From a virus: a DNA stretch of 22,240 nt. Under the pieces are notes generated by a model. It made no database searches and was not told the origin of the DNA. It saw only the letters and a list, made by a program, of their open reading frames with translations. The first letter of the stretch is position 1; every line of letters starts with the position of its first letter. Of the stretch, positions 809 to 21,491 are shown piece after piece. The position numbers and the translations under genes were made by a program. The stretch spans positions 1 to 22,240 of IMG/VR virus record IMGVR_UViG_3300039159_000361, one strand, 5' to 3'.

Positions 809-1206
809 GCGTTCCCGTCGGTGAGACTAAAGCTCGTGACGTTGATCTGCTGACCCGACGCGAAGACCACGTTGTCAACGGTCATGTCCCCTCCGCCGGC
901 GGTCGCAGTGACCGTGCCCTGGATGTGGCACGTAGCGCCGGCAAAGACGCGAAAATGCCCAGCGGTCCCTGCGGCGTCAGCGCTCGCGTCCTGCCACGTG
1001 CCTAGCAGCGCCTTCACTCCGGATGCGGCAGCCGACATCCAGTCGGACGGCAAGGCGAGCGTCGCGAGGACAGTTCCGGATGAGGCGGTCGCGCACGTCG
1101 CGGGCGGCGCGCCGCTGCGGATCTCGAGCGATGGAGAGACTCCAATCGTGGTCTCGATGCTGTCGAGACGTGCGTTGCGGACGGCGACGGATAACTGGAC
1201 GGCCAT
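805..1206 (-). CDS. Small phage virion-type protein
   Basis: 133 aa. It begins MAVQLSVAVRNARLDSIET, followed by a TIGVSPSLEIRSGAPPATC stretch, and ends with GGGDMTVDNVVFASGQQINV. I recognise this pattern as a recurrent small structural protein of tailed phages, predicted to be beta-rich. The start sits one base inside the portal stop (TAATG) and is preceded by GGAGAG about 6 nt upstream on the minus strand. The stop overlaps the next ATG. Coupling to the portal implies co-production with virion parts. No enzymatic motif is seen. It could be a head decoration or minor tail protein; the sequence alone does not decide. Confidence 0.75.
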   Translation of the reverse strand: MAVQLSVAVRNARLDSIETTIGVSPSLEIRSGAPPATCATASSGTVLATLALPSDWMSAAASGVKALLGTWQDASADAAGTAGHFRVFAGATCHIQGTVTATAGGGDMTVDNVVFASGQQINVTSFSLTDGNA

Positions 1207-2891: not shown

Positions 2892-2919
2892 CGCCCCGAA
2901 GTATGTGTGATCCAGGGAA

Positions 2920-3120
2920 CTACGTGGATTGTTTTGAGCGTTTGTATCGTTCGTGGGCGTTGATGCTGACCCTGTTCTTTCGCCAGTAGAGAGCGTTGTA
3001 CCGAAGCATATAGTGCTTGCGACACCAGCCTTTTAGCGTCGCGTGCTCGACGCATTCCGGATCGGAACAGACGGCGTTTCGCCTTGACCTAGGACTCATA
3101 GGCTCAAAACGCATTGCCAT
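2920..3120 (-). CDS. Small zinc-finger / HNH-VII-like protein
   Basis: 66 aa from ATG 3120; an in-frame TTG at 3132 would add four residues, and an ATG at 3099 would shorten it. The visible motif is C18-x4-C23-x9-C33-x2-H36 (within VCSDPECVEH and GWCRKHYML), followed by a very basic tail rich in Arg, Lys and Tyr. This resembles the zinc knuckle of phage recombination-endonuclease-VII/HNH-type small proteins (CSxxGCxx...GxCxxHYxR). The second nuclease half is absent, so DNA or RNA binding is likelier than cleavage. Base composition is clearly AT-richer than its neighbours, suggesting a recent arrival. It lies between the portal and the divergent head cassette. No good ribosome-binding site is visible. 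Confidence 0.6.
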   Translation of the reverse strand: MAMRFEPMSPRSRRNAVCSDPECVEHATLKGWCRKHYMLRYNALYWRKNRVSINAHERYKRSKQST

Positions 3121-3142
3121 CAGATAGCACAATCAATCACCA
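3121..3142. promoter_or_regulatory. Divergent intergenic region, probable promoter site
   Basis: This is the only short AT-rich, non-coding gap between the leftward zinc-finger/portal group and the rightward head cassette. Both directions must initiate at or near here unless transcripts enter from outside. The stretch holds TGATTGATTGTGCTATCTG on the minus strand, in which a weak -10-like CTATCT can be seen, but no convincing -35/-10 pair. In Mu a C-activated late promoter (PI) lies at the corresponding place before gene I, so an activator-dependent promoter would fit. Position is inferred from gene layout; motif evidence is weak. Confidence 0.3.
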
Positions 3143-5758: not shown

Positions 5759-6406
5759 GTGGCGTCCGACCTCTACTGCTCGCGAAGCGACGTTGCCCGG
5801 CGGCTCCCGCCCGGCGCGCTGACATCGTCGGCGGGCCTGGTCGCGTCCTCGCTGGCAGCTTCGAACGCCATCACCTACGACGGCCACGGCCTCGAGACAG
5901 ACGACCCGGTGACGGTGCGCGTGGCCGGCAACGGCGTGCTCCCCGTGCCGCTCGTCGAGGGCGTCACGTACTACGCGCGCCGGCTGACGAACGCGACCCT
6001 CGAACTGGCCGCCACGGTCGGAGGCGTGGCCATCAATCTGACGTCGGACGGGACGTCGGTGATCATCGCCCGCGACCCCGACTTCGACGGGCTGATCGAG
6101 TTCTACTCGCGGTGGGTCGACGGGTTCTTCCTCGCCCACATGGTGCCGTTCACGGCTCCGATCCCTGCGATCGTGAAGGGCCTCGTCGCCGACCTCGCGG
6201 CGAAGCGGCTGCTCAACATCTCGGGCCAGGACTCCGACGCGGTGAACGCCGCGGAGCTCGCAGCGAAGGCGCAGCTCGAACGATTCGCCACTGGCATCCC
6301 GACGCGCGACGCCACTGCGACGCTGCCCGCCGCCAACCTCGCGATCACGTCGAGCCTGAGCGCTACGAGCGACCCGCGCGGCTGGGGATCGGGGACGATC
6401 CCATGA
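5759..6406 (+). CDS. Mu gp36-like (DUF1320) head-tail adaptor with inserted domain
   Basis: 215 aa; gp36-type proteins are usually about 140-150 aa. The adaptor core is split. The N-terminal LYCSRSDVARRL (5-16) and the later helical part from DPDFDGLIEFYSRWVDGF (107 on) through IPAIVKGLVADLAAKRLL match the family. Between them, about residues 33-104, lies a beta-type module with HGLETDDPVTVRVAG and GVTYYARRLTNATLELAA, a pattern common in phage tail-surface proteins. GTG 5759 is the only start in frame after the stop at 5711, and its upstream SD is poor. Its stop overlaps the next ATG. Role: connector ring under the portal (family knowledge); the insertion is directly visible. Confidence 0.75.
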   Translation: MASDLYCSRSDVARRLPPGALTSSAGLVASSLAASNAITYDGHGLETDDPVTVRVAGNGVLPVPLVEGVTYYARRLTNATLELAATVGGVAINLTSDGTSVIIARDPDFDGLIEFYSRWVDGFFLAHMVPFTAPIPAIVKGLVADLAAKRLLNISGQDSDAVNAAELAAKAQLERFATGIPTRDATATLPAANLAITSSLSATSDPRGWGSGTIP

Positions 6407-7409: not shown

Positions 7410-9329
7410 ATGCCGCTGATTCCCGAAGCAAACGTTGCCATCTCCGCGACCGCCGCCGCCCTCGCGGGAGGCACCGGCTATCACGTCGTGATCGCTCCGG
7501 TCAGCGTGAGCGCTGACATCACCCCGCGCCTCTTCCAAAACGGCACGGACATCCTCGCGCAGCACGCGTACGCCCCCGGCGTCGACTACGCGGCGCTATT
7601 CATCGAGGGCACGAAGAAGCCGGTCATATTCATCGGCGTCCCGATCGTGACCCCCGGCGTCGTCGGTCGTCAGAACGCGAGTGGCGTTCTCGGCACGTGC
7701 GTGATCTCCGCCGCCGCTGGTGGTGCCGGCGCGCTCGACGAGACCTCGGTGATCTTCGCGGTCACCAACCCCGGAACGATCGGGACCACCGGCATTCGCG
7801 GCACGCTATCGCTCGACGGTGGCATCACGGCGAAGGTCATCAGCCTCGGTACCGCGAACACGTACGTGATCCCCTACGTCGGCCTCACGCTCTCGTTCGG
7901 CGCCGGCACGCTGCTCCTCGGCGATCGCTACACGTTCTCGACGACCGCGCCCATGTGGGACAACGCCGGGCTCACCGCGGCGCGGCTCGCGCTCGTCGCG
8001 CAGCAGAAGCTCTCGCGGACGTGGATGGTCATCGGTGACCTTCCTGACGCGACGACGGCCGGATTCATCACGACGCAGGTGAACGCGTACGAGACCGCGA
8101 ACAAGCGGTTCGTCCTCGCGCGCGCGCAGGTCCGCGACCAGCTCCCGCTCGCCTCCAAGTCGCGCATCCCGAAGACGATGACCGGAGCGCCGAGCATCAC
8201 GTTCGGCGCGACGACCACGATCACCCGCGCGGCGGGGTCATTCCTGACGGATGGCTTCCTGGTCGGCGACGTCGTGGTGGTGGCCGGGTCGGTTTCGAAC
8301 AACGGATCGAGGGGCGCGATCACCGCGCTCACCGCGACGGTCATGACCTTCGCCTCCGGCATCGTCAACGAGGGTCCGATCGGCACCGTCACAATCGTCG
8401 GCTCCGAAGGCCTCGTGTTCACGACCACCACGGCGACCCGCTCGGTGGGCTCGTGGCTGACCGACGGCTTCCGCGTCGGCGACTCGGTCACGACCGCCGG
8501 CACCGCCTCGAACAACGGCACGAAGGTCGTCACGGCGCTCACCGCGACCGTGCTGACGTACGCGTCAGGAGGCGCCGCCGAGACCATCGGGTCCGCGCTC
8601 GTCACGATGACGAAGGGCGAAACGGTGGCCACCTACGTGGCTCTCATGGACGCCGCGTTCACGTCCGTCGACGCGCAGAAGCGGCTAAGCCTCGGCCTCG
8701 GTCGCCTCCGCAAGCTGAGCCCGATCACGGGCGCGGCGCCGCGGCGCCCGGTGCAGTGGGCGGCGTCGATCCGCGAGTACCAGAACGACGTTCACCGTCC
8801 GACGTGGACAAAGGAAGACGGGCCCCTCGACGGCTGGAGCGCGCTCGACGCGTCCGGCAACCTCGCCGAGTACGACGAGTACGTGAACGGCGGCGGCCTT
8901 GCGGCTCGCTTCACCGTCGCCCGCTCGTGGGGTAACGGGCCCAACGGCGCATTCATCGCTATGGATCTGACCCGCGAGGTCGAAGGCTCTACGCTTCAAT
9001 TCACGCACAACATGCAGGTAGCGAACGTCTTCTGCTCGATCGTCCAGCAGAAGACCGAGAATATCATCGGCAAAACGCCGGTGCTGAATGCGGACGGCAC
9101 CGCGACGAGCCAAGCGCTGCAGTTGCTTGAAGAGTCGGTAAACACCGACGTCAAGCAGGCGCTCATGAAGCAGTTCGTGCCCGGGCAAGGGCAGCGCGCG
9201 AGTCTCGCGGTTTGGCGCGCATCCACCGACGACGACCTACGCGGCGTCAACGCGACCCTCACCGGCGTCGGCGAGCTCCGCGTCAATGGAACGATCGTCC
9301 GCGTGAACACGCTGGTCGCAGTGAGCTGA
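7410..9329 (+). CDS. Contractile tail sheath protein (Mu gpL-like) with duplicated insert
   Basis: 639 aa, longer than Mu gpL (about 495). The N-terminus (MPLIPEANVAISATAAAL) and the C-terminal domain with VQWAASIREYQNDVHRPTW, LTREVEGSTLQFTHNMQVANVF and VARSWGNGPNGAFIAMDL fit sheath proteins, which form the contracting outer tube. Residues 263-334 and 335-405 are two diverged copies of one module (about 72-residue period), each with a TDGFxVGDxVxxAGxxSNNG core and then TALTATVxTxASG. They sit inside the middle, surface-exposed domain. Another beta-rich stretch (about 95-170) also exceeds the core. SD GGAG lies before ATG 7410; the tube gene follows after 10 nt. Confidence 0.9.
   Translation: MPLIPEANVAISATAAALAGGTGYHVVIAPVSVSADITPRLFQNGTDILAQHAYAPGVDYAALFIEGTKKPVIFIGVPIVTPGVVGRQNASGVLGTCVISAAAGGAGALDETSVIFAVTNPGTIGTTGIRGTLSLDGGITAKVISLGTANTYVIPYVGLTLSFGAGTLLLGDRYTFSTTAPMWDNAGLTAARLALVAQQKLSRTWMVIGDLPDATTAGFITTQVNAYETANKRFVLARAQVRDQLPLASKSRIPKTMTGAPSITFGATTTITRAAGSFLTDGFLVGDVVVVAGSVSNNGSRGAITALTATVMTFASGIVNEGPIGTVTIVGSEGLVFTTTTATRSVGSWLTDGFRVGDSVTTAGTASNNGTKVVTALTATVLTYASGGAAETIGSALVTMTKGETVATYVALMDAAFTSVDAQKRLSLGLGRLRKLSPITGAAPRRPVQWAASIREYQNDVHRPTWTKEDGPLDGWSALDASGNLAEYDEYVNGGGLAARFTVARSWGNGPNGAFIAMDLTREVEGSTLQFTHNMQVANVFCSIVQQKTENIIGKTPVLNADGTATSQALQLLEESVNTDVKQALMKQFVPGQGQRASLAVWRASTDDDLRGVNATLTGVGELRVNGTIVRVNTLVAVS
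8196..8628 (+). repeat. Tandem domain duplication inside the sheath gene
   Basis: Two in-frame copies of a roughly 216-nt unit, 8196-8411 and 8412 to about 8628. Protein similarity between copies is high around the TDGF.VGD and SNNG motifs and the ALTATV motif, while DNA identity is only partial, so the duplication is not recent. The second copy lacks a few residues at its end. Confidence 0.8.
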
Positions 9330-9339
9330 GGAGCCTCCC

Positions 9340-9849
9340 ATGCCTGACAATTCTTCCGGATCGCTGAACATCCACGAGTGCTCCTGGGCCGATGGTGAGA
9401 TCACCATCCTGGCCCCCGGCGGCCCTACCGTTCCCATGCTCGATCTTGAGGCCTGGAAGTGGAGCCGCAAGAACGAGCGCGGCGAGTCGCGCGGCCTCTC
9501 CGGTCGCGTGAAGAAGCGCACCCGCGGCTCCTCCTCATGCGAGGCCTCGGCGACCGCGACCCGCGCCGGGTGGATGCTGATCCTCGAGACCATCGAGGAG
9601 ATCGCGCTCGCCCTCAACCGAACGCGCGACGACAAGGTCATCATCGGCGGGATCGACTTCGACGTAGTGATCCAGCACACGCCGCTTGGCGACTCCCGCA
9701 TATACGCGGTGAAGCTTTCGGGCTGCTCGCTCGACGGCGACTCGTCGGACATGAAGCAGGGGAACGAGGCCGACATGATCGAGCTGGTCCTCAACCCTAT
9801 GGAGATCTCGGTGAAGAGCGCCACGGGCAAGTGGCTGGTGTACGCGTGA
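9340..9849 (+). CDS. Tail tube protein (Mu gpM-like position)
   Basis: 169 aa. TGAGGAG at 9327-9333, overlapping the sheath stop, lies 6 nt before ATG 9340. The protein shows alternating strands: EITILAPGGPTVPMLDLEAWKW near the start, SGRVKKRTRGSSSCEASATAT in the middle, then ALNRTRDDKVIIGGIDFDVV and a final MIELVLNPMEISVKS strand. Size and position directly after the sheath and before the chaperone match the inner tube subunit of myoviruses. No lipobox or membrane segment. It stacks in hexameric rings inside the sheath (family knowledge). Assignment rests on gene order, size and strand pattern. Confidence 0.7.
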   Translation: MPDNSSGSLNIHECSWADGEITILAPGGPTVPMLDLEAWKWSRKNERGESRGLSGRVKKRTRGSSSCEASATATRAGWMLILETIEEIALALNRTRDDKVIIGGIDFDVVIQHTPLGDSRIYAVKLSGCSLDGDSSDMKQGNEADMIELVLNPMEISVKSATGKWLVYA

Positions 9850-10301
9850 GCGACACCACCAAGCACCTCACCGCCGACCAGCGGATCGCGGCCTCCGCGG
9901 CGCGCCGCGCCGAGCGCGCCGAGGCAGAGGCCGATGCTCGCAAGGAGCAATTCGCCGACGACCTCGAGGCCATCGAGGCCATCGAGGCGAAGCTCGGCGC
10001 GCGCGTTCGCTACAGCGCGCAGGTGTCGAACTTCGTGCCTGGTCTGCCTGTGATCGTCGGCGTGCGGCCACCGGAGCCGGCCGAGCACAAGCGGTTCGTC
10101 AAGATGGTGAACGCGAACGGCAACAACGCCGACGCGAAGATCGCCGCGGTCGCGCAGCTTGCGCAGCTCTGCTGGGTCTACCCCGAAGACAAGTTCACGC
10201 GCGATGCGATGGTCCAGGCGAACGCGGGCCTGATCTCAAGCGTCGGAAACTTCGCGTACTCGCTCGGGGATGTGGAGCTCAAGGACGAGGGAAAAGAGTA
10301 G
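9846..10301 (+). CDS. Tail assembly chaperone, unshifted product
   Basis: 151 aa from GTG 9846, overlapping the tube stop (GTGA). The N-terminal 45 residues are highly charged and helical (AERAEAEADARKEQFADD), followed by a compact domain with VGVRPPEPAEHKRFVKMVN and QLAQLCWVYPEDKFTRDAM, typical of phage tail-chaperone G-type proteins. These coat the tape measure before the tube polymerises round it. The final codons GGA AAA GAG TAG include the slippery site that sends a fraction of ribosomes into the -1 frame (see 9846-10456). The open frame starting upstream at 9459 is only a shadow of the tube gene. Confidence 0.8.
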   Translation: MSDTTKHLTADQRIAASAARRAERAEAEADARKEQFADDLEAIEAIEAKLGARVRYSAQVSNFVPGLPVIVGVRPPEPAEHKRFVKMVNANGNNADAKIAAVAQLAQLCWVYPEDKFTRDAMVQANAGLISSVGNFAYSLGDVELKDEGKE

Positions 10302-10456
10302 CCGCGCGGGCCGACCTCGCGCGGAAGTACCCGAGCGCCCTCGCAGACTGCCTGCTCGCGTTCCGTGATGCGAGCGACACCGGCGTAGACGCGCAGGCGG
10401 GCGCAAGGATTCAAGCGGAGTGGATGCTGTCTCAGATCGCTCAGACCAAGAGGTGA
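9846..10456 (+). CDS. Tail assembly chaperone, -1 frameshift fusion product
   Basis: Predicted 203 aa: 150 residues in the first frame up to AAA 10293-10295, then a shift back by one base, reading AGA GTA GCC from 10295 to TGA 10454-10456. The added 53 residues (RVAARADLARKYPSALADCL and onward to a QAEWMLSQIAQTKR end) form an amphipathic helical domain with no start codon or SD of its own at its beginning. The 159 nt between the first stop and the tape-measure start would otherwise be unexplained. This is the G/GT arrangement found in lambda and most long-tailed phages. The fusion is inferred from the signal at 10289-10324 and the open downstream frame. Confidence 0.82.
10289..10324 (+). promoter_or_regulatory. 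Programmed -1 ribosomal frameshift signal
   Basis: Slippery heptamer G_GGA_AAA at 10289-10295 in the correct phase. A 6-nt spacer containing the zero-frame TAG stop follows (10296-10301). Then comes a perfect 7-bp GC stem, CCGCGCG (10302-10308) with CGCGCGG (10318-10324), closing a 9-nt loop. All three elements are in ideal order and spacing. Lambda uses the near-identical G_GGA_AAG. Confidence 0.85.
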
Positions 10457-10460
10457 TGTC

Positions 10461-12284
10461 GTGTCGGACGGTTCGAGCTTCGAGATCGACCTAGGCGTGA
10501 AGGGCGGCGACGCCGCGGCATCCGCAGCGTCGGCGCTCGACACGCTCGCGTCAAAGCTCGAGTCCGCCGGCGCCGCCTCGACGGCGGCGTCCGCCGCGAT
10601 GGCCGCGGGTCAGGGGGCGTACGACGCGTCGGAGAAGGCAGCGCTTAGGGCGTCGGTGGCCCTCGAGAAGATCGGTCTCGCGGCGGCAGCGCAGACCGGC
10701 AAGGCGGCTGCTATCGCCGCCGAGTACGGGCTCTTCTCCCCGCAGGCCGCGAAGGCCTCCGAGAAACTCGCTGCGCTCACCGCCGCCCAAGCGAACGCCG
10801 CGACAAAGGCCGCGACGACAGCCGCCGCCATGAACGCAGAGGCCGCATCGCTCGACAAGCTCAGGGCTGCATCGAGCGCCGCTACGACAGCCGAGGAAAA
10901 GCTAGGCAAGGCCCACGACGACGCGAAGAAGAAGATCGCGGCGTCGGATAAGGCCTCGAAGGACTCGGCTGACGCGCAGGCGAAGAGCGTAGGAACGGCG
11001 GGCCTGCTCGAGGGCGCGTTCGCTAAGCTCGGCGGCCCGCTCGGCGACATCGGGCAGAAGGCGACCGGCGCGCTCGGCGCGTTCCTGAAGCTAGGGAAGG
11101 GCCTCGGCGATGCCGGGCCGTACGTGGCGCTCGCGGTAGTAGCCGTCGCTCTCGCGGCCGGCATCGCGGCGGCTGGCATCGCGGCGGCCGGCGCCACTCT
11201 CGCGATCCTGAAGCTCGGTGTCACCAACGGCGACACGGCGCGCACGGCGCGGCTGCTCGCCGAGGAGGCGAAGGGCGGCGCGGCCGGCCTCGCCGCCACC
11301 GCAAAGCTCGCGCTCTCGCTCGACAACCAGTCGAAGAAGCTGAAGGAGAACATCGGTAAGATCTTCTCCGTCGGCGCCGGCCCGCTCGAGCGTTTCCTTG
11401 AGGGCCTCGGGAAGATGGGCGCGCTCTTCGAGGAGGGCAGCGTCACCGCGAACGCGATCAAGGTCCTGTTCGGGTCGTTCTTCGACCCGATGCTCGACGG
11501 GATCACGAAGCTGATCCCTCGTTTCGTAACGATGTTCATCCAGTTCGAGATCTTGGTGATGAAAGCCATGATCGCGATCAAGCCTTGGGGCTCGACGATC
11601 CTGGACGTGGCCAAGGTCGTGGGCGTACTGGCCCTCGTCGTCGGTGTCGGCCTCGCCGTCGCGATCGGAGTTGTCGTTGCGGGGATCGCACTCATGGCGG
11701 TCGGCATCGGCATCGCGATCGCGCTCGTCACGGCCATCATCGCGGCCTTCGTGTACTTCGCTGTTGTGACGTACCAGGCTGGCGCGTCGCTGATCGACGG
11801 CATCGGCGCTGCGTTCGAGTGGCTGAAGGGTCTCTCGCTGTCTGAGATCGGAACGCAGCTGATCGACGGCCTGGTGGCCGGCCTGATGAGCGCCGGCCCG
11901 AAGGTGCTCAGCGCAATCACCGGCATCGCGAAGGGCGCAATCACGGCGGCCAAGACGGCGCTCGGCATCGCGAGCCCGTCCAAGGTCTTCGCCGAGATCG
12001 GCATGCACACCGCGGCCGGCATGGAGCAGGGCGTCGACGGCGGCGCGGATGCGGTCCAGGGTTCCATGGAGGCGATCGTCGAGCCCCCGGCGGTATCGGG
12101 CGGCGGCGGCGCTCCGGCGGCGAGCGCGGGCGCGTCGGGCGGCATCGCCGGCGGCGCGGGTGGCAACGTCTACAACATCACGATCAACGGCGCGAGCGGC
12201 GACGACGACTTCCTCAGCAAGCTGCGCGATGCATGCGCGCTGCTTTCGATTCAGTCGGGTGGGGGGGCGCCGGCCAATGGCTGA
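10461..12284 (+). CDS. Tail tape measure protein
   Basis: 607 aa from GTG 10461, with AAGAGGTGA just upstream, overlapping the stop of the frameshift product. Residues 1-190 are Ala-rich helix and coiled coil with many Lys/Glu. Hydrophobic segments lie at about 219-254 (VALAVVAVALAAGIAAAG) and about 386-440 (a long Val/Ala/Ile/Gly run), as in tape measures that insert in the host membrane. GIASPSKVFAEIGMHTAAGMEQG (about 490-515) is a signature-like tail-protein motif, and the C-terminus is Gly-rich with NVYNITINGASG. Using the family rule of about 0.15 nm per residue, the tail would be near 90 nm. The last bases overlap the next gene by 8 nt. Confidence 0.9.
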   Translation: MSDGSSFEIDLGVKGGDAAASAASALDTLASKLESAGAASTAASAAMAAGQGAYDASEKAALRASVALEKIGLAAAAQTGKAAAIAAEYGLFSPQAAKASEKLAALTAAQANAATKAATTAAAMNAEAASLDKLRAASSAATTAEEKLGKAHDDAKKKIAASDKASKDSADAQAKSVGTAGLLEGAFAKLGGPLGDIGQKATGALGAFLKLGKGLGDAGPYVALAVVAVALAAGIAAAGIAAAGATLAILKLGVTNGDTARTARLLAEEAKGGAAGLAATAKLALSLDNQSKKLKENIGKIFSVGAGPLERFLEGLGKMGALFEEGSVTANAIKVLFGSFFDPMLDGITKLIPRFVTMFIQFEILVMKAMIAIKPWGSTILDVAKVVGVLALVVGVGLAVAIGVVVAGIALMAVGIGIAIALVTAIIAAFVYFAVVTYQAGASLIDGIGAAFEWLKGLSLSEIGTQLIDGLVAGLMSAGPKVLSAITGIAKGAITAAKTALGIASPSKVFAEIGMHTAAGMEQGVDGGADAVQGSMEAIVEPPAVSGGGGAPAASAGASGGIAGGAGGNVYNITINGASGDDDFLSKLRDACALLSIQSGGGAPANG

Positions 12285-14093: not shown

Positions 14094-14494
14094 CGGCGGA
14101 TCTCGGACGAGACACCAGTTGCACGACGTCGCTCCGCACGGGGCGCTTCGTCACCGGTCCCCTGCTGGTGGCCGAGGCGATCTACCGCCGGCTCACCACT
14201 CCGCGCGGCATGCTCCGTGGGGGCGAGGAGGAGGCGAACTACGGCCTGGATCTGACCGAACTGATCGGCGAGACGAATCCGAAAAACGTGATCGCGTCCC
14301 TACCCGGCCGCATCCGCTCCGAGCTATCGAAGGACGAGCGGGTGCTCTCCGCCACCATCACCGTCGTCGCCACGCTCCTCGGCGTGAACACCGCGCTCGA
14401 GGTCGCCATCGCGGCCACCACGTCGGCCGGCCCCTTCACGCTCAAGCTCCTCGCCTCCGCGGTCACCGTCGAACTCCTGGGGATCACAACCTGA
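14090..14494 (+). CDS. Baseplate wedge protein, gp25/Mu gp46-like
   Basis: 134 aa from ATG 14090 (ATGA overlap). The long open frame upstream to 12860 is a shadow. The pattern GPLLVAEAIYRRLTTPRGMLRGGEEEANYGLDL (about 22-54) is the classic gp25-like segment (ALxxRLxTPRGxL). LPGRIRSELSKDERVLSATI and a final beta strand follow. This protein joins sheath, hub and wedge in contractile machines, being homologous to T4 gp25, P2 gpW and TssE. The usual EPR motif of gp25 proteins is not obvious. The stop overlaps the next ATG. Assignment is good from motif and order. Confidence 0.8.
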   Translation: MTADLGRDTSCTTSLRTGRFVTGPLLVAEAIYRRLTTPRGMLRGGEEEANYGLDLTELIGETNPKNVIASLPGRIRSELSKDERVLSATITVVATLLGVNTALEVAIAATTSAGPFTLKLLASAVTVELLGITT

Positions 14495-15657
14495 TGGCCA
14501 CCGTCTCTCTCGCGACCCTGCTCGTCCAGCAGACGAAGGCGCAGCTCTACACCTTCGCTCTTGGCATCGCGAACGCGGTCGGCCTGCCCGTGTCCTCGTG
14601 GCAGGCGGGCGACCCGACGCGCGCGCACTTCAACGTCGAAGCCGAGACGATGGCGACGCTCGAGGAGGTCATCGTCGGGTACATCCAGTCGGGGTTCCTC
14701 GACTTCGCCACCGGCATCTGGCTCACCATCCTGGCCGACCAGGTCTACGGGGTGACGGTTCCGCCGGCGACGTTCGCGACGACGGACGTCACGATCACGA
14801 ACCAGGGCGGCGCGTACTTTCCCTCGAACCCGCCCGGCTCTCTGACCTTCAAGTCGACGGTCTCGGGCAAGACGTTCACCAACACGACGGGCGGCGCGCT
14901 GGCCAGCGGCGTCGGTCAGACGCTCACCGTCACCGTCGTGGCCGACACGGCTGGATCTTCGAGCACCGCGGGCGTCGGCGAGATCAATGCCCTCGTCACG
15001 CCCCTAGGGTCCGCGACCTGCTCGAACGCCGTCGCGGCGGTAGGCACCGATCAACAGGACGACGCGACGACGCGCGCGCTCTGCCGCGCTTCGCTCGGGC
15101 CGCTGTCGCCGAACGGGCCCGCCCTCGCGTACGGCTTCGTCGCGCTCACGCCCTCGCTCACCGGAACGAGCGGCATCACTCGCCAGCGGACGTATCCTAA
15201 CAGCACGAACGGGCAGGTCGTCCAGTACCTCGCTGGCCCCGGTGGAGCGATCTCCGCCGCCGACCTCGCGCTCGCGCAGGCGGCGATCCTCAAGCTGGCC
15301 ACGCCGCTCTGCATCACGCCCATCCTCTCGTCGGCGGCGAACGTCCTGATCCCCCTCACCTACCAGCTCTGGGTCTACAAGAGCTCGAACAAGACCGAGT
15401 CGCAGATCGCCGCCGACATCGTGGCTGCGCTCACGAAGCTGCTCGCGGGCAAGCCGATCGGCGGCGACGTCATCGTCCCGGGTTCGCCGGGCGCGCTCTA
15501 CACGTCCGACGTGGAGACCGCGCTCAAGGCGGCCGTCCCTCAGGCCTTCCGCGTGATCATCGACAGCCCCGTCGGCGACACGGCGCTCGGCCAGGGCCAG
15601 GTTGCCGCGCTCGGCACCGTGCTCCGCACCATCACCTTCGTCCAGGATCCCACCTGA
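14494..15657 (+). CDS. Baseplate J-like wedge protein (Mu gp47 type)
   Basis: 387 aa from ATG 14494 (TGATG overlap). The N-terminal helix is followed by FLDFATGIWLTILADQVYGV (about 68-87), QGGAYFPSNPPGSLTFKS and a long strand-rich middle with GVGEINALVTPLGSATCSNA. Then come TTRALCRASLGPLSPNGPALAYGFVAL and the conserved-type ending GGDVIVPGSPGALYTSDVETAL. These are the landmarks of Baseplate_J/T4 gp6-like proteins, which build the dimeric wedge ring controlling sheath contraction. Length is near Mu gp47 (about 360). It shares one base with the next gene's ATG. Confident at family level. Confidence 0.85.
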   Translation: MATVSLATLLVQQTKAQLYTFALGIANAVGLPVSSWQAGDPTRAHFNVEAETMATLEEVIVGYIQSGFLDFATGIWLTILADQVYGVTVPPATFATTDVTITNQGGAYFPSNPPGSLTFKSTVSGKTFTNTTGGALASGVGQTLTVTVVADTAGSSSTAGVGEINALVTPLGSATCSNAVAAVGTDQQDDATTRALCRASLGPLSPNGPALAYGFVALTPSLTGTSGITRQRTYPNSTNGQVVQYLAGPGGAISAADLALAQAAILKLATPLCITPILSSAANVLIPLTYQLWVYKSSNKTESQIAADIVAALTKLLAGKPIGGDVIVPGSPGALYTSDVETALKAAVPQAFRVIIDSPVGDTALGQGQVAALGTVLRTITFVQDPT

Positions 15658-16457
15658 TGTTTGCGCGCACCTTCCGCACGATCCGGCGATCCGTCGCGCC
15701 CCGCTGGCTCACCGACGGCGAGGGCGGGCTCGTCGGGTACGCGCTCGACCTGATGAAAGACGCGCTCGCGCAGCGGACCTACCTCGGCCTCCTCGCGCGG
15801 CTCCCTCAGAACGACCCGCTCGGGCTGACTACGGCGCCGCCCGACGCGCTCGTCCAGATGAGCCGAGACCGCCGCGTCTTCCGCGGCATCTTCGACACCG
15901 ACCAGCAGTTCGCCGTGAAGCTGCGCAACTGGCGCACCCCGCGGCGGACGGCGGGCGCCGCGTTCACGCTGCTCTCCCAGCTACATGCGTACGTCGGCAC
16001 CGCGAGCGGCGTGTCGTTCCGCACCGTCGACAACTCGGGCAACTGGTACGCGCGATCTGCCGCTGGCGTAGAGACGTCGAGCCTCGCGATGGGGAATTGG
16101 AACTGGGACGGCGACACGGCAGCGTGGTCTCGCTTCTGGGTAATCATCTATCCGGGAACGCTGTGGCCCGTGACCACGCAGCGATGGGGCACCACCGGAG
16201 CCGTGTGGGGAAGCGCGCCGAACCTCTGGGGCTCGACGGCGATCACGCCAGAGCAGGTCGTGACGCTCCAGGCGATCGTCAACGACTACAAGCCAGCCGG
16301 CACCACGTGCGTGAGCATCATTCTCGCTTCGGATCTCGCGTCGTTCAATCCCGCGTCACCAGAGCCGGATGGCCTCTGGGGTCGCCCGCACAAGATCGTC
16401 GGTGGGGTCGTGGTCCCATCCCGACTCACGACAGCCCGTTACCTCGAAGGAGTCTGA
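15657..16457 (+). CDS. Trp-rich tail/baseplate protein (Mu gp48 position)
   Basis: 266 aa from ATG 15657 (TGATG overlap). The N-terminal part (MFARTFRTIRRSVAPRWL, then LDLMKDALAQRTYLGLLARLP) is helical. The C-terminal half is strikingly Trp-rich (NWNWDGDTAAWSRFWVIIYP, then RWGTTGAVWGSAPNLWGS), followed by YKPAGTTCVSIILASD and a PSRLTTARYLEGV ending. I recognise this as a conserved tail protein of contractile phage cassettes, where T4 gp7/8 or P2 gpI-type baseplate components sit. It probably links the wedge ring to the fibres encoded next. No transmembrane segments or enzymatic motif. Role is from position. Confidence 0.7.
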   Translation: MFARTFRTIRRSVAPRWLTDGEGGLVGYALDLMKDALAQRTYLGLLARLPQNDPLGLTTAPPDALVQMSRDRRVFRGIFDTDQQFAVKLRNWRTPRRTAGAAFTLLSQLHAYVGTASGVSFRTVDNSGNWYARSAAGVETSSLAMGNWNWDGDTAAWSRFWVIIYPGTLWPVTTQRWGTTGAVWGSAPNLWGSTAITPEQVVTLQAIVNDYKPAGTTCVSIILASDLASFNPASPEPDGLWGRPHKIVGGVVVPSRLTTARYLEGV

Positions 16458-16460
16458 TCC

Positions 16461-17492
16461 ATGGCCGTCTACAACCCTTCTCCGAATGTACTTCCCGCGG
16501 GCCTCACGTTCCCCGCTGACGGCGAGACCATCGAGGCCGCGGATGTCACCGTACCGATGGCGGCGCTCGCCGATGCTATCGCGGCGATAGTTCCGCGCAT
16601 CGACATCATTACGGCGGCTAGCGCGTCGTTCCTGGTCCCCCCCAATGTGACAAAGTTAATTGTCGGCGGGATTGGCGGCGGCGGCGGCGGCGGCGGTGGA
16701 GCCGCCGGCTGGAACGTGGCATCCAATTCCTCATCTGGCGGCGGCGCTGGCGGCGCTGCTCTTGAGCGAGTCATCGCGGTGACCGTTGTGCCTGGCACTA
16801 CGCTCAACTTCTTCGTCGGCGGCGCCGGCCCGGGTGGCAGCGCAGGAGCGCCGAACGCAGGCAACGGAGGGGACGGCGCCGACGGGGGGCAGTCCAACAT
16901 CAGTGGCGCGATATCGGCCACGATCTCGCTAGGCGGAGGCGGCGGGCGCGGTGGTGGCACGGTCAACGGCGCCGCATTCAACGTCTACGCGATGGGCGGA
17001 GGCCCATCCCAGTTTAATTGGGCCGCGGTCGTACTTAACGGCCGAGTGACGGTGGGGACCTCCGGGGCCCTCCCCGACGTATTTCCATATACGCAAACAA
17101 ACAAGGGGGTCGGTTATGGCGGACTCGGAGCGTCGGCCGTTACCGGCATGCCCGGCGCGAACAGTGCAACCGGGTTTGCAGGCGGTGCTTCTGGTGCGAC
17201 GTTCGGCGCCCCAAGCGGGTCGTACAATGGTGGTGGTCGAGGTGGCGGCGGAGCAGCCGGCGTCTACGGGGCGGGCGCGGCAGGAGGCAGCGGCGGCGCC
17301 GGCAACAGCGTGGGCGTGGGGGTCGTCGGCGCGGCAGCGGCGGCGGTCTCGGGACCGAATACCGGAGCGGGCGGCGGCGGCGGCGGCGGGGGCGGATCTG
17401 GAACGACCGGCGCGAGCGGCGGCGTCGGGTCTGCCGGGAGCACCGGCCTGGTCTGGATTTACTACGTCGGTCCGCAGGCGGTGATCACGTGA
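16461..17492 (+). CDS. Glycine-rich tail fibre / adhesin
   Basis: 343 aa; AAGGAG (16447-16452) lies 8 nt before ATG 16461. Residues 1-60 form an attachment-type region (NPSPNVLPAGLTFPADGETI). From about 66 the protein is dominated by polyglycine (a run of eight Gly near 73-80; another near 305-313) separated by short hydrophobic strands such as ERVIAVTVVPGTTLNFFVG. It ends with VGSAGSTGLVWIYYVG. Polyglycine-II sandwich adhesins like this sit at fibre tips and bind the host surface, with loops providing specificity. GGC triplet runs at the DNA level make in-frame length change likely. The 3' end overlaps the convergent metalloprotease gene by 31 nt. Confidence 0.82.
   Translation: MAVYNPSPNVLPAGLTFPADGETIEAADVTVPMAALADAIAAIVPRIDIITAASASFLVPPNVTKLIVGGIGGGGGGGGGAAGWNVASNSSSGGGAGGAALERVIAVTVVPGTTLNFFVGGAGPGGSAGAPNAGNGGDGADGGQSNISGAISATISLGGGGGRGGGTVNGAAFNVYAMGGGPSQFNWAAVVLNGRVTVGTSGALPDVFPYTQTNKGVGYGGLGASAVTGMPGANSATGFAGGASGATFGAPSGSYNGGGRGGGGAAGVYGAGAAGGSGGAGNSVGVGVVGAAAAAVSGPNTGAGGGGGGGGGSGTTGASGGVGSAGSTGLVWIYYVGPQAVIT
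16674..16697 (+). repeat. GGC triplet tract in adhesin gene
   Basis: Seven consecutive GGC units followed by GGT, coding polyglycine; a second, imperfect GGC/GGG tract lies near 17370-17392. Slippage would add or remove Gly residues without shifting frame, a route to fibre-tip variation. Confidence 0.7.
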
Positions 17493-17938
17493 CACACGCC
17501 GGCGCGCTGGCACTCGCACTGGTCGGCGTGCGTCCAGATCAACGGCCCGATGGTGTGGTTCATGATGCCTGGCTCGGTCACGTGCCTCATCCCTCGGTAG
17601 TGACCGAATTCGTGGGCCGCGAGCGATGTGGTGAGCGCGGCCGGGTCGAGGGACACATTGAGCACGAACGCGCAACCGATGTCTGCGGCACCGCAGAAAG
17701 GGACGCCCCGCCGAATGATTCTCGCGCGCGGCCACTGCACGTCGTCGGAGGGATGCTCGAGGTCCCAGACGATATCGATCGGCTCCTCGTGCAAGGCATC
17801 GGCAAGCCACCGATTGCCCTCCTCGATCTTCGCTCGCTCCTCGGCTGTGAACGTCACGTCGCCGTGGGCCGTGAAGTCAGGCGCGCACCCGAGAAAGGAG
17901 AGCGCCAGGGCGATAGGGGCGACGAGCGATCGAGGCAT
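17462..17938 (-). CDS. Metzincin-like zinc metalloprotease, probable lipoprotein (moron)
   Basis: 158 aa, read against the tail operon. Residues 1-18 form a short signal sequence (MPRSLVAPIALALSFLGC) with C18 as probable lipidation site; FLGC is an imperfect lipobox, so plain secretion is possible. HEFGHYRGMRH (109-119) is an exact HExxHxxGxxH metzincin zinc site with catalytic E110, and G124-I125-M126 is a matching Met-turn seven residues on, as in matrixin-type proteases. Six further cysteines (82, 89, 141, 143, 149, 155) suggest disulfides. At 158 aa it is a minimal catalytic domain without a clear propeptide. It overlaps the adhesin 3' end by 31 nt. Probable role: lysogen surface or exported protein; substrate unknown. 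Confidence 0.85.
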   Translation of the reverse strand: MPRSLVAPIALALSFLGCAPDFTAHGDVTFTAEERAKIEEGNRWLADALHEEPIDIVWDLEHPSDDVQWPRARIIRRGVPFCGAADIGCAFVLNVSLDPAALTTSLAAHEFGHYRGMRHVTEPGIMNHTIGPLIWTHADQCECQRAGVCHVITACGPT

Positions 17939-17988
17939 GCAGGTCTGACGATTCTCGCAGGTTCGAATTCACCGGGAGGGTTTTCTTC
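17939..17988. promoter_or_regulatory. Divergent intergenic spacer with SD for the fibre gene
   Basis: This 50-nt gap separates the leftward metalloprotease from the rightward fibre gene and must hold the protease's start signals. GGGAGGG (17974-17980) is a strong ribosome-binding site for ATG 17989. A TTCGAATTC block lies in the middle. I see no clear -35/-10 pair for either strand and no SD for the protease gene. Confidence 0.4.
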
Positions 17989-18585
17989 ATGACGCAGGCT
18001 AACGTCGCAGGCTGGCTCCCAGCTCTACTCGGCCCCGTCGTTCTACAGGTAGGCGGCGTCCCGCAGGTGTCGCGCTCGAACATCAACTTCGCGGGCGCTA
18101 CCGCGGGCGACAACCCCGCCACCGACACGCTGACGATCACGCCAAACGCAGCACCGTCGACGCTGACCGGTGATGGCACAGGGTACGCGCAGATCACGGC
18201 GGTAAACGGCACCGTGGTGGCGACGCCCAAGGGCAAGGACACCGACGCGATCCTCTCGACGACGACGCCGAACGCGACCGCCGCCACCATCTTCTCGTAC
18301 CCCACGACGTCGAATCGCATCATCTCGATCGAGGGAGTGATCACGCTCTTCAACGGCGGTGCCGGCCACGCGAAGTACAAGCTCGACGGCCTCTACAAGA
18401 ACCTCGCCGGCACGCTCGTCAAGCATTCGACCACGCCCACCGACGTCGCGACCGGCCCCGAGAGCTCCAGCTCCACCGACGTGATCCTCACGCTGAGCGG
18501 GACGAACATCATCGTGCAGGGCGCGGGCTTCTCGATCAACAACAGCTGGACCGGACGGATCTTCGTGCACGAGGCTGCGTTCTGA
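17989..18585 (+). CDS. Tail fibre-like structural protein
   Basis: 198 aa with a strong SD (GGGAGGG). It opens with VVLQVGGVPQVSRSNINFAGATAGDNPATDTLTITPN, the pattern of trimeric fibre segments (xxxLNFxGATVxDNPxxxTxxVTI) in many phages. A beta-rich domain follows, with NRIISIEGVITLFNGGAGHAKYKLDGLYKN, a Ser/Thr-rich loop (PESSSSTD) and ILTLSGTNIIVQGAGFSINNSWTGRIFVHEAAF. This second half looks like a jelly-roll head domain such as those at fibre tips. No membrane or catalytic motif is present. It resumes the rightward operon after the metalloprotease and is one base from the next start. Fibre or capsid-decoration roles are both possible; fibre is preferred from position. Confidence 0.6.
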   Translation: MTQANVAGWLPALLGPVVLQVGGVPQVSRSNINFAGATAGDNPATDTLTITPNAAPSTLTGDGTGYAQITAVNGTVVATPKGKDTDAILSTTTPNATAATIFSYPTTSNRIISIEGVITLFNGGAGHAKYKLDGLYKNLAGTLVKHSTTPTDVATGPESSSSTDVILTLSGTNIIVQGAGFSINNSWTGRIFVHEAAF

Positions 18586-18586
18586 G

Positions 18587-19585
18587 ATGCAGCCCTGGAT
18601 CTTCATGGGCCGCAGCGGCGCGGCCGTTGCCGCGCCGACGGTGGCCAGCGTCTCTCCCGCCGTTGCGGACACGGCAGGCGGAGGCGGCATCGTCACGATC
18701 ACCGGCGCGAATCTCACCGGAGCATCGGGGGTGACCCTCGGTGGCACCGCCGCCACGTCCGTCACGGTCGTCAACGCGACAACGATCACGTGCGTCCCCG
18801 GGGCACGCGCGGCGGGCGCATCGCTCAGCATCCTCGTCACCACGCCCGCAGGAACGAACGGCGCGAACACGTTGTTCGAATACTGGACGCCGTCGCAGAT
18901 GACGGGCATCGGCGGATACTACGACGCAAACAAGAGCGCGAGCACGTCGTCGTGGGCCGATCAGTCCGCGACCGCGGGGTCGGCGACGCAGGCCACGGGG
19001 GCGCAGCAACCGGTCGTCACGGCGAGCTCCTTCGGCGCGTTGCCGGGTATGACGTTCGACGGCGTGAAGCGAATGCTGCTCGCGTCGAAGCGAACGCAGG
19101 CTTCTGGGCGCTCGGTATTCGCCGTCACGAAGTGGCTGTCCTCCGTCAGTACGACGACAGCCTATGTCGGTAACGCCCCGCTCGTCATGGTCGGGGAATC
19201 CGGCGCGAACGTACAGGGCTCGTTCGGCGCATCGGCGGGAAGCATCGAGTACGCGGACGCGAGCAGCGGATCGCCGCACAATATCCGCGGCTCCACAACA
19301 CTTAACGACAACGTGGCGCGTCTCGTCGGCGTAACGCACAACTCCTCGACCAACGTCGCAAAGCTCTACGTGGGAGCAACGCAGCAGGGCGCCGACGCCG
19401 CGATCACGGCGCCGTACGACTCGCGGTGGGGATGGGATGCGATCGGCTGCGGATTCCTCGCTGGCGGCGACGGCGATGGATTCATCGGCACGCTCGGCGC
19501 GGTCATCGTGCTCGATCAAGTAGCGGCCGGCAGCGACCTCACCAAGCTCAACGCCTGGGCGCGGCAGCGATTCGGAACCCCTTGA
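18587..19585 (+). CDS. Tail fibre protein with IPT/TIG and lectin-like domains
   Basis: 332 aa, starting one base after the previous stop. Residues about 17-95 are a clear IPT/TIG immunoglobulin-like domain: PTVASVSPAVADTAGGGGIV, then ITGANLTGASGVTLGG and TSVTVVNATTITCVPGARAAG. Residues about 100-332 (YYDANKSASTSSWADQSAT, PGMTFDGVKRML, ARLVGVTHNSSTNVAKLYVG, GFIGTLGAVIVLDQ) follow the layout of concanavalin/LamG-like carbohydrate-binding domains often found on fibres. Together they suggest a spacer plus sugar-binding tip. There is no signal peptide, so it is a virion protein and not exported. It ends just before the lysis cassette. Domain calls are by motif reading. Confidence 0.72.
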   Translation: MQPWIFMGRSGAAVAAPTVASVSPAVADTAGGGGIVTITGANLTGASGVTLGGTAATSVTVVNATTITCVPGARAAGASLSILVTTPAGTNGANTLFEYWTPSQMTGIGGYYDANKSASTSSWADQSATAGSATQATGAQQPVVTASSFGALPGMTFDGVKRMLLASKRTQASGRSVFAVTKWLSSVSTTTAYVGNAPLVMVGESGANVQGSFGASAGSIEYADASSGSPHNIRGSTTLNDNVARLVGVTHNSSTNVAKLYVGATQQGADAAITAPYDSRWGWDAIGCGFLAGGDGDGFIGTLGAVIVLDQVAAGSDLTKLNAWARQRFGTP

Positions 19586-19602
19586 GCAGCGAGGATCCAA
19601 CC

Positions 19603-20163
19603 ATGACACTCGATCCACGAAAAGAGCCCGATGGGCCCGCTATCACTCCTACGCAGCCGTCGATGCCCGAGAGCAAAAAAACCGTCAGCCTCCCCACGCT
19701 GACGGACCGCGCGCTGCTCGAGGATCTCGCGCGCGTGGTCCGCAACATCGCGGACAACGTAGGCGAGACGCGGAACGACCTCTACAAGCTCAACGTCAAA
19801 GTGACTTCCACCGACGAGCGCCTCGCCCGCGTAGAGGGCCGGCTCGTGGTGCTCGAGACGGCGCCGATCAGCGTCACGCCATCGATAGCGCCGCCGCCTC
19901 CGCTCACGAGCGTCAAGGTCCGAGCCCTGATCGACAGCACCACATCGCAGATGGATCTCGAACACGACGCGCAGCTCGCGCATGAGCGTGCGGCCCGCGA
20001 GGACCTGGCCGCGAAGGTCGACGTGCTGACCGAGACGCAGCAGACGCAGCTCGCGATCCTCTCGCGCCTCGACAAGATCACCAGCAACCCGCTGGTGAAG
20101 ACGCTCCTCACCATTCTCGGCACCGCGTTCGCAACGTGGGCCGCTTCGAAAGGCCTGAAATGA
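19603..20163 (+). CDS. Coiled-coil protein with C-terminal membrane anchor (XhlA-like)
   Basis: 186 aa from ATG 19603 with GAGGA (19591-19595) upstream; the longer frame from 19426 is inside the fibre gene. It has a Pro-rich N-terminus, then long charged heptad-like helices (DLARVVRNIADNVGETRNDL, then DERLARVEGRLVVLE), a Pro hinge (SIAPPPPLTS), a second helix (ERAAREDLAAKVDVLTETQQ) and a single C-terminal hydrophobic helix (LVKTLLTILGTAFATWAAS). This resembles holin-associated XhlA-type proteins, though it is about twice their size. First gene of the lysis cassette; ATGA overlap with the next. Function as lysis helper or holin is inferred. Confidence 0.55.
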   Translation: MTLDPRKEPDGPAITPTQPSMPESKKTVSLPTLTDRALLEDLARVVRNIADNVGETRNDLYKLNVKVTSTDERLARVEGRLVVLETAPISVTPSIAPPPPLTSVKVRALIDSTTSQMDLEHDAQLAHERAAREDLAAKVDVLTETQQTQLAILSRLDKITSNPLVKTLLTILGTAFATWAASKGLK

Positions 20164-20393
20164 AACGCACACCCGACACGATCGCCGCCCTCTTCCTGCT
20201 CGCAGGCCTCACGCTCGCGTGCGCGCGGCTCGCCGTGGGGTGTGTTGGAGGCGCGGCGGAGGCCACGTACACCGCAGACCTCCTGCGCTGCGTCGACAAG
20301 GCAGCGACGCTCGCCGAGTCGCGCGCGTGCAGGCGCCACGTCGACGGTAACTACGGGATCACGCAGACCACCAGCGACGGGGGCACGCGATGA
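20160..20393 (+). CDS. Small exported lipoprotein-like protein of lysis cassette
   Basis: 77 aa from ATG 20160 (ATGA overlap). Basic start MKRTPDT, hydrophobic segment IAALFLLAGLTLACARLAVG, with Cys at 21 (TLAC, partial lipobox) and another at 28. The mature part carries LRCVDKAATLAESRACRRHVDGNYGI, a two-Cys helical hairpin pattern that I associate with small lysis-region lipoproteins of many phages. It could be an outer-membrane spanin (Rz1-like), although Rz1 proteins are usually Pro-rich and this one is not. The ATG of the next gene overlaps its stop. Export is supported by sequence; spanin role is a guess. Confidence 0.55.
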   Translation: MKRTPDTIAALFLLAGLTLACARLAVGCVGGAAEATYTADLLRCVDKAATLAESRACRRHVDGNYGITQTTSDGGTR

Positions 20394-20563
20394 CCGCCGA
20401 GCAGCTGGCTATCCTGACCGCGACGCGCCTCGCAGCGGAGCTGCTGCTCTCTCTGGTCGACCGCGAGACCGCGGGCCGGGCGCTCGACGATGCCGCCGTG
20501 CGACGGGCCAACGCTGTCGCCGATGTCGCCGAGTCGCTGAAGTGGCCAGGTGAACGCCGGTGA
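20390..20563 (+). CDS. Small helical protein of the lysis cassette
   Basis: 57 aa. ATG 20390 overlaps the upstream stop, GGGGG lies 6 nt before it, and TGA 20561-20563 overlaps the next GTG. The protein is MTAEQLAILTATRLAAELLL followed by a charged helix ending in LKWPGERR. It is Ala/Leu/Arg-rich and amphipathic, without a clear membrane segment or Cys. Overlapping start and stop on both sides and the usual GC-rich third positions argue that it is a real gene. I do not recognise the family. It may be a lysis regulator or antiholin-like partner. Confidence 0.6.
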   Translation: MTAEQLAILTATRLAAELLLSLVDRETAGRALDDAAVRRANAVADVAESLKWPGERR

Positions 20564-20769
20564 CGTTCCCCGAAGCGCTCGTCATGTTGTTCGCGATCGG
20601 CCCCGCCGTCATCGCGGTAGTCCTGAGCGTGCAGGCTCGACGCCAGCGGAGGCGGTACCTCGCCGCGCTCGAGGCGGAGAGGGAGGAGACGCGACGAGCG
20701 TACTCGCTGGGCGAAGATATCGCTGAGCGCCGACATTCGTTCTCGGCGTGGCCATGGAGGCACCGATGA
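20560..20769 (+). CDS. Small membrane protein, candidate i-spanin or holin
   Basis: 69 aa from GTG 20560, with AGGTGA 6 nt upstream, overlapping the previous stop (GTGA). One N-terminal transmembrane helix (LVMLFAIGPAVIAVVLSV, about 7-24) is followed by a strongly basic stop-transfer stretch (RRQRRRY) and a charged helix (LAALEAEREETRRAYSLGED). If oriented N-in, the helix would face the periplasm as in an inner-membrane spanin. The positive-inside rule instead favours C-in, as in some small holins. Its ATGA-overlapping neighbour is the endolysin, so a lysis role is likely; the exact role is open. Confidence 0.55.
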   Translation: MTFPEALVMLFAIGPAVIAVVLSVQARRQRRRYLAALEAEREETRRAYSLGEDIAERRHSFSAWPWRHR

Positions 20770-21491
20770 GACCCGTTATTGAGGCCCGCTGGCTTGAGTT
20801 CACCGAGCCGCTCGAGGGCGGCCTCCCGTACGCTTACACGGACATCCGCGGCATCGTAACGATCGCGTACGGCAACGCCGTGTTCAGCGCCGCGGATTTC
20901 GCGCGCCTGCCGCTGATGCATCCCGGCGGCGTTGCCGCAACGACGGCCGAGAAAATCGCGGCTTACGCCGTGCTAGTGAACAACAACAAGGCCGCCAAGT
21001 CCGGACACCTCTACGCCAAGCGCCTTACGACCATCCGCCTAACGCGCGAGGGCATGAGCGACCTCGCGCTCGGCAGGCTGCACGCGAACGACGGCATACT
21101 GCGCGGACGCATCGACGGATGGGAGGACCTGCCGGCGTGCGCGCAGATGGCGATCCACAGCCTCGCGTGGGCATGCGGCCCCGCGTTCCGATTCCCCAGG
21201 CTCGTCGCTGCTACGGTGGCCGGCGACTACGACGTCGCGGCGGTCCACATCCGGATGAACGAGACGACTCCTGAAGGGCACTTCAACGCCGGGCTCGTCG
21301 CGCGCAACCGCGCGAACGGCATCTTGATGCGCAACGCGGCGCGGGTCCGCGACTTCCGGCTGGACCCCGACACGCTCGTGTGGGATCGGCCGTTGTCCGT
21401 GGATGATGCGCCCACGATGCCCGAGCTCCCCGCCGCGGAGGAGTCTCCCCGGTACTGCGGCGACGACGAGATCCCGGACGACGTCGCGTAG
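20766..21491 (+). CDS. Endolysin, T4-type lysozyme (GH24-like)
   Basis: 241 aa from ATG 20766; GGAGG lies 5 nt upstream, inside the previous gene. Glu17, Asp26 and Thr32 (in LEGGLPYAYTD and GIVTIAYGN) have exactly the 9- and 6-residue spacing of T4 lysozyme Glu11-Asp20-Thr26. NAGLVARNRANGIL (about 177-190) matches the C-terminal arginine-rich GLVxRRxxE region of the family. It cleaves the glycan strands of peptidoglycan at the end of infection. No signal sequence is seen, so it needs a holin. The last 30 residues are acidic and low-complexity (PAAEESPRYCGDDEIPDDVA), and they overlap the antisense RHH gene. Confidence 0.85.
   Translation: MRPVIEARWLEFTEPLEGGLPYAYTDIRGIVTIAYGNAVFSAADFARLPLMHPGGVAATTAEKIAAYAVLVNNNKAAKSGHLYAKRLTTIRLTREGMSDLALGRLHANDGILRGRIDGWEDLPACAQMAIHSLAWACGPAFRFPRLVAATVAGDYDVAAVHIRMNETTPEGHFNAGLVARNRANGILMRNAARVRDFRLDPDTLVWDRPLSVDDAPTMPELPAAEESPRYCGDDEIPDDVA
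21221..21245 (+). repeat. Direct repeat copy 1 (inside endolysin gene)
   Basis: The 21 bases 21225-21245, GACTACGACGTCGCGGCGGT plus C, recur exactly at 22215-22235; including the preceding CGG and one mismatch the match covers 25 bases. Here it encodes GDYDVAAV. Confidence 0.85.

Follow-up and report, generated by a model that had tools for sequence, protein, structure and literature searches.

A protease gene coded against the tail operon of a phage raises the questions of whether it is a gene at all, how it came to stand in that place, and what its product might do for the virus. The window, by which we mean the whole stretch of DNA that was analysed, is a 22,240-base IMG/VR fragment with a GC content of 67.6%, and it contains a Mu-type portal, a protease, a major head protein, a tape measure, baseplate J and fibre-like genes; lysogeny genes are outside its reach. 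The closest named relative is Myxococcus phage Mx4 (36% in the protease), which was also the only phage to match the window portal, at 23%, and this relatedness tips the balance slightly towards a myxobacterial host.

The portal block of the window (2-3143) is read from the minus strand and diverges from the genes for the protease and the major head protein, and this divergence of head genes is common to the window and its relative L013 (5302-8805), while Mx4 is coded entirely on one strand. On the plus strand, 19480-21491 is a likely lysis cassette, the members of which are a protein with a C-terminal TM segment (to 20163), a small lipoprotein-like ORF, an i-spanin-like ORF with an N-terminal TM segment and a coiled coil (20560-20769), and, with a score below cut-off, a lysozyme-like gene (20748-21491) homologous to one in L074 (E 1e-23).

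An earlier note on this DNA had described a zinc-site motif at residues 109-119, a Met-turn at 124-126, a signal peptide with Cys18 and six further cysteines, and an opposite orientation with 31 nt of 3' overlap, and each of these was confirmed in the 158-aa ORF or, for the overlap, at 17462-17492 (Table 1). The match to the metzincin clan motif, HExxHxxGxxH/D, is exact, and Met126 lies 7 residues past the third histidine of the zinc site. Given that HExxHxxGxxH was expected 0.006 times per window (1000 dinucleotide-preserving shuffles, all six frames) and was observed once, and that the minus frame has a GC content by codon position of 0.65/0.50/0.84, as in other window genes, chance is no explanation for this ORF. 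A stricter motif that takes in the following Met had a mean of 0.000 in the same window shuffles (n = 1000), and was likewise observed once.

It was reasonable to consider that 17462-17938 is not a gene but the antisense shadow of a plus-strand ORF, 17489-17992, which suits the operon through GTGA/ATGA overlaps. The codon-position GC of the plus-strand ORF (0.80/0.51/0.62), together with its lack of a family match, marks that ORF as the shadow, and it was rejected as a true gene. The minus-strand ORF, on the other hand, has the codon-position GC of the window genes, a Pfam match, the motif, a lipobox and homology that extends beyond the motif, and the whole stretch is missing in a relative. 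The shadow reading is hardly credible, and the ORF is, almost certainly, a real gene of metzincin type. Its position between what the earlier note had called an adhesin and a fibre gene stood, whereas the adhesin label did not, this neighbour being a Gly-rich tail-fibre-like protein (phrog_12796, E 1.5e-6). From the metzincin start codon to the next plus-strand gene there are 50 nt; a simple sigma-70-type scan, ill-suited to a high-GC host, gave no promoter or terminator for the metzincin gene.

Table 1. Features of the metzincin locus and its flanks (window coordinates).
Feature	Position	Strand	Basis
Probable accessory gene for a 158-aa predicted lipoprotein metzincin	17462..17938	-	coding signature, motif, Pfam, fold, homology
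Predicted type II signal peptide and lipobox, residues 1-18 (MPRSLVAPIALALSFLGC), Cys18 as putative lipidation site	17885..17938	-	sequence and lipobox rule
Zinc-binding active site HEFGHYRGMRH, residues 109-119, Glu110 catalytic	17582..17614	-	sequence
Met-turn GIMN, residues 124-127, Met126	17558..17569	-	sequence
Cys-rich C-terminal tail (C141, C143, C149, C155)	17474..17518	-	sequence
Convergent 3' overlap of metzincin and fibre genes, 31 nt	17462..17492	.	coordinates of both genes
Baseplate J gene, true start probably downstream; start of tail-fibre region	14119..15657	+	Pfam E 7.8e-9, phrog_6, 45% to G042, 55% to L103
Tail protein between baseplate J and fibre, conserved in kin	15657..16457	+	46% to L139, 48% to L103
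Gly-rich tail-fibre-like gene, left flank of insertion	16461..17492	+	phrog_12796 E 1.5e-6; N-terminus related to L139:3774-4406
Fibre-region gene, right flank of insertion	17989..18585	+	homologous to L139:4408-4833, E 3e-7

The Pfam match of the protein was to Peptidase_M10 (PF00413; E 2.3e-4), with 21.5 bits against a gathering cut-off of 24; an NCBIfam search returned no real match and a PADLOC search none. We modelled the protein with AlphaFold2 on an alignment with 35 metzincins from viral contigs that had been gathered by motif, and obtained a confident metzincin-like core (pLDDT 79, pTM 0.74), with pLDDT below 50 in loop 84-92 only; a single-sequence control gave no structure. The predicted elements, namely a strand at 23-27, a helix at 32-48, strands at 55-60, 73-77 and 94-97, the active-site helix at 104-114 and a C-terminal helix at 137-145, follow the metzincin order. 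When the model was compared with the PDB by Foldseek the first 28 matches were all metzincins, MMP-9, BMP1, astacin, MMP-13, karilysin and snapalysin among them, at modest scores (best E 0.02, TM ~0.45). Its structural neighbours in BFVD include annotated phage metalloproteases, such as the predicted structures of a matrixin of Maribacter phage Colly_1 and a Zn protease of Lactobacillus phage 3-521, although these are weak matches (E ~0.1) from phages of other hosts, and we know of no test of function for either.

Since the alignment used for folding had been gathered by motif, homology outside the active site was tested separately, with an HMM for which four phage lipoprotein metzincins had been truncated ahead of the active site. 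Among 7013 ORFs the window protein (E 0.01) came next after the family members and L015. The motif, the Met-turn, the predicted fold and the homology found beyond the active site all back the proposal of an exported metzincin, and the structure prediction that had been suggested as a check gave no fold unlike metzincins, AlphaFold2 and Foldseek being in agreement. No homologue without the catalytic Glu was met, a check that is not independent because the homologues were collected by motif.

By motif and predicted fold the protein is a metzincin at the level of the clan, from which a zinc endopeptidase activity may be inferred. An assignment to matrixins or astacins at the family level did not hold. 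In matrixins, a Ser or Thr follows the third zinc-binding His; here the residue is Val120. Neither a propeptide nor a PRCGxPD cysteine switch was found, and the first predicted strand begins directly past the lipobox. The protein has in common with the matrixins (PF00413, MEROPS M10A) its best Pfam match, the zinc motif, the Met-turn and the predicted fold, but the Val, the missing propeptide and switch, and the score below gathering set it apart, and as judged from its sequence it is not a textbook matrixin.

The N-terminus consists of a hydrophobic region and the lipobox SFLGC, with Ala at position +2. The cysteine of a lipobox is as a rule the site of lipidation, and by the E. coli sorting rule Ala at +2 indicates a lipoprotein of the outer-membrane type. 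Given the type II signal peptide, export and lipidation are to be expected; the metzincin is in all likelihood an exported lipoprotein, and the lipobox and the Ala at +2 would put it in the outer membrane. The six cysteines outside the lipobox (82, 89, 141, 143, 149 and 155), an even number, would fit an oxidising compartment, and with its C143-x5-C149-x5-C155 spacing the tail is similar to the FC...C...C tails seen in L004, L074, L013, L006, L048 and L093. After export, lipidation of Cys18 would tether the enzyme to the host envelope, on either its periplasmic or its outer face, the catalytic core of ~140 residues presumably braced by disulfides.

As to how the gene came to stand where it does, the relative G042 (loci L124 and L139) matches the window in the portal (48%), sheath (46-48%), baseplate J (45%) and tail protein (46%). 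Past its tail protein lies a gene (L139:3774-4406) the N-terminus of which is related to the window fibre (score 65, where the best of 20,000 shuffles reached 52), full-length BLASTP between the two finding nothing, and the homologue of the right-hand flank, L139:4408-4833, starts 1 nt after it. In the window the same two flanking genes are 496 nt apart and have the metzincin between them, and the 28 kb of G042 contain no M10 match. No metzincin was found in other distant kin, several of the records of which are fragments, or in Mx4; the latter was set aside as a direct comparison, being without a metzincin and having HExxH proteins of a type other than HExxHxxGxxH.

Morons are genes that a phage has acquired horizontally and that are transcribed independently of its other genes (PMC6469090). 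The window gene is extra with respect to L139 of G042, where it is missing from the same place, and on such sequence comparison it is very probably an accessory insertion. The view of the gene as accessory cargo, already taken in the earlier note, gained from this empty site in a related phage and from the related cargo in kin phages described below. No further relatives came up when viral contigs were scanned with the L013 metzincin, P0001, the second fibre gene or baseplate J, and no cellular source was found by the P0001 scan or by one narrow pattern scan of genome contigs.

We sought kin phages with the tail-fibre region that begins at baseplate J. When the window proteins were compared with all loci, four metzincin contigs first picked out solely by their motif (L013, L017, L075 and L103) proved to be kin, and each of them carries a lipoprotein metzincin. 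In L013 (portal 58%, sheath 52% to the window) it is flanked by the portal block on one side and by a convergent terminase gene on the other, and in L075 (protease 38% to the window) it lies near a large gene that is maybe a terminase (no Pfam match). L017, which shares baseplate J and the tail protein, has its metzincin at 10632-11180 on the minus strand, convergent with a fibre gene at 9787-10638 on the plus strand and overlapping it by 7 nt. In L103 (baseplate J 55%, tail protein 48%) the metzincin is at 8831-9334 on the plus strand, directly after a fibre gene homologous to that of L017 (E 1e-18), and is 0.45 kb from a minus-strand integrase; the L103 fibre has a short module in common with the L139 fibre (E 0.007). 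Integrase matches were found as well in the distant kin G041 and G044 and in Mx4. A lipoprotein metzincin therefore lies 3' of a fibre gene in three members of the lineage (the window, L017 and L103), is coded against the tail operon in two of those three (the window and L017), and is missing from this slot in one relative.

The phage lipoprotein metzincins of L013, L017, L075, L103, L004/L134, L074 and L048 are like the window protein in having a lipobox, HExGHxxGxxH and a Met-turn, and in several of them the likeness extends to a tail rich in cysteines and, ahead of the active site, to the helix A and W/DL motifs. They are unlike it in that they are mostly longer, have other insertion sites and orientations, and are only ~20-27% identical to it; for the kin copies this is too low to tell shared descent from independent gain. 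We found no published description of these proteins.

With respect to function, phage T5 offers a model of position. Its llp gene, beside the receptor-binding gene, encodes a lipoprotein that blocks the receptor and excludes superinfection, and that presumably cuts the loss of progeny on debris; other phages are suspected of coding for Llp-like lipoproteins downstream of gpJ (PMC9586334, PMC4728585). The window gene is like those of T5 Llp and Cor in encoding a phage lipoprotein beside a receptor-binding or fibre gene, given its lipobox and its fibre-like flanks, in which the receptor binder is a candidate only. Llp and Cor, however, are small blockers without an enzymatic domain, and since the window protein has 158 residues and a full metzincin active site it is at most functionally like Llp, and no member of that group. 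The enzyme has its parallel in Mtz of Listeria, which is secreted, stems from phage and occurs in prophages as well; this metzincin cleaves a lipoprotein and makes cells more sensitive to lysis (PMC8235301). Export, the Met-turn, occurrence in prophages and a proteolysis that alters the cell envelope are points of likeness; on the other side, Mtz has a Sec/SPI signal and it is its partner Tim that is the lipoprotein, whereas here the metzincin itself would be lipidated, and mtz-tim belongs to a Gram-positive host and lies downstream of holin and lysin.

Because the fibre-side position and the lipoprotein match the logic of Llp, and the enzyme matches Mtz, we prefer host-surface proteolysis, and consider it moderately probable that the gene encodes an envelope metzincin that alters the host surface, possibly by cleavage of a receptor. 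The recurrence of similar proteases in related viruses suggests remodelling of the surface of the infected cell. The copies of L013 and L075, which sit by head or packaging genes with no fibre next to them, count against this reading, as does the lack of a general bias in orientation among phage metzincins. The metzincin quite probably acts on host envelope proteins, while a role specifically in receptor removal or superinfection, for which the analogy is with the receptor-blocking lipoproteins of T5-like phages, is possible but doubtful; more tentative still is the idea of a proteolytic superinfection-exclusion lipoprotein, in which the fibre-adjacent metzincin would destroy the cognate receptor where Llp and Cor block it. 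Produced in an infected cell or a lysogen and tethered to the envelope, a metzincin would cleave those envelope proteins that it can reach. In the most specific and least certain version, the surface structure bound by the neighbouring fibre would be destroyed or trimmed, and loss of that structure would mean less superinfection and fewer progeny lost on debris. The receptor of the neighbouring fibre is only suggested as the substrate, although this is what the pairing of fibre and metzincin predicts. If host-surface proteolysis is the true function, phages would be cutting the surface proteins of their hosts in order to protect or convert them, a mode unlike that of the known blocking lipoproteins.

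Other roles were weighed against it. A metzincin produced late could weaken the envelope, cleaving for example a lipoprotein or an outer-membrane anchor, and so aid endolysin and spanins, as has been proposed for Listeria Mtz-Tim, which sensitise cells to phage lysins (PMC8235301). Late expression is possible, given that the metzincin genes of L134 and L074 follow late-looking genes on the same strand and that the lysis-type genes of the window are 1.5-4 kb downstream of its metzincin; in L074, moreover, an endolysin lies 2 kb beyond. The window metzincin is nevertheless coded against the late operon, and no TIMP-like lipoprotein partner was met next to it, where the neighbours are fibre-region genes, the sole other small lipoprotein-like ORF in the window being at 20136-20393. 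Across 40 metzincin records, searches with lysozyme and amidase families (PF00959 and PF01510) yielded few matches at variable distances and no consistent proximity, and a linkage of metzincins to lysis genes was rejected. An accessory part in lysis thus seems rather unlikely.

The protease could also be cargo of lysogenic conversion, a surface enzyme with which the host attacks prey proteins, takes part in kin interactions or alters matrix, and which has no direct role for the phage. Its lipoprotein signal, opposite orientation and insertion would agree with this, as would the integrase that adjoins the kin gene in L103 and the relatedness to Mx4, which suggests a myxobacterial (predatory or saprophytic) host. 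But that host is itself an extrapolation, the window is a fragment and integrases occur only in its kin, and the repeated placement beside fibres would be left unexplained; we judge such cargo unlikely. A virion-associated protease that acts on the receptor, the alternative raised in the earlier note, or on a capsule, in either case during adsorption, is highly improbable even though the gene sits among fibre genes: it is disfavoured by the signal peptide and lipobox and by the opposite orientation, kin copies lie near head and terminase genes with no fibre beside them (L013 and L075), and the metzincin is missing from a close relative that shares the tail genes.

The narrow pattern HE[L/F]GHxxG..H...M[N/Y] matches at least 119 IMG/VR stretches, and among the matches listed many have signal peptides, lipoboxes or N-terminal anchors; exported metzincins are, by these predicted signals, common in environmental phage contigs. 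Given this number and the precedent of a Listeria prophage metzincin that had already been studied (PMC8235301), the description of such a protease as unusual phage cargo was overstated. The locus directs attention to the exported metzincins of environmental phages, a large group that has received little study and for which Listeria offers the one worked example. Not all of the metzincin contigs need be viral, and the 472,749-base record behind L006, which has six M10 matches, may be a metzincin-rich jumbo phage or else a contig of cellular origin that was filed wrongly.

The loci L002, L048 and L135/L136, when first inspected, had given rise to the idea that metzincins are preferentially coded against the gene flow. 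This was rejected, 7 of 76 being flipped as compared with 70 of 665 control genes, in counts that rest on rough gene calling, and only the lineage-level parallel in L017 stands. In L048 a lipoprotein metzincin with a Cys-rich tail (5776-6390, minus strand) lies against the head operon, downstream of terminase, with a 384-aa gene on one side and the major head protein on the other. In the unrelated low-GC phage pair L135 and L136, an N-terminally anchored metzincin (L135:2771-3424 and L136:9109-9768) is opposite to both neighbours and adjoins the same conserved genes of 789, 384, 237, 603 and 1220 aa.

Two further groups were noted in viral contigs. Metzincins of ~140 aa with ordinary signal peptides and the motif HELGHLRGL.HS.DP.SIMYP...CW form a family in L025, L043, L056 and L107. 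The other, an apparently undescribed family of ~194-aa N-terminally anchored metzincins with the motif HELGHALGFLH..N.INHLMN.KW..GGWD, occurs in L045, L050, L061, L080, L089, L094, L098 and L118.
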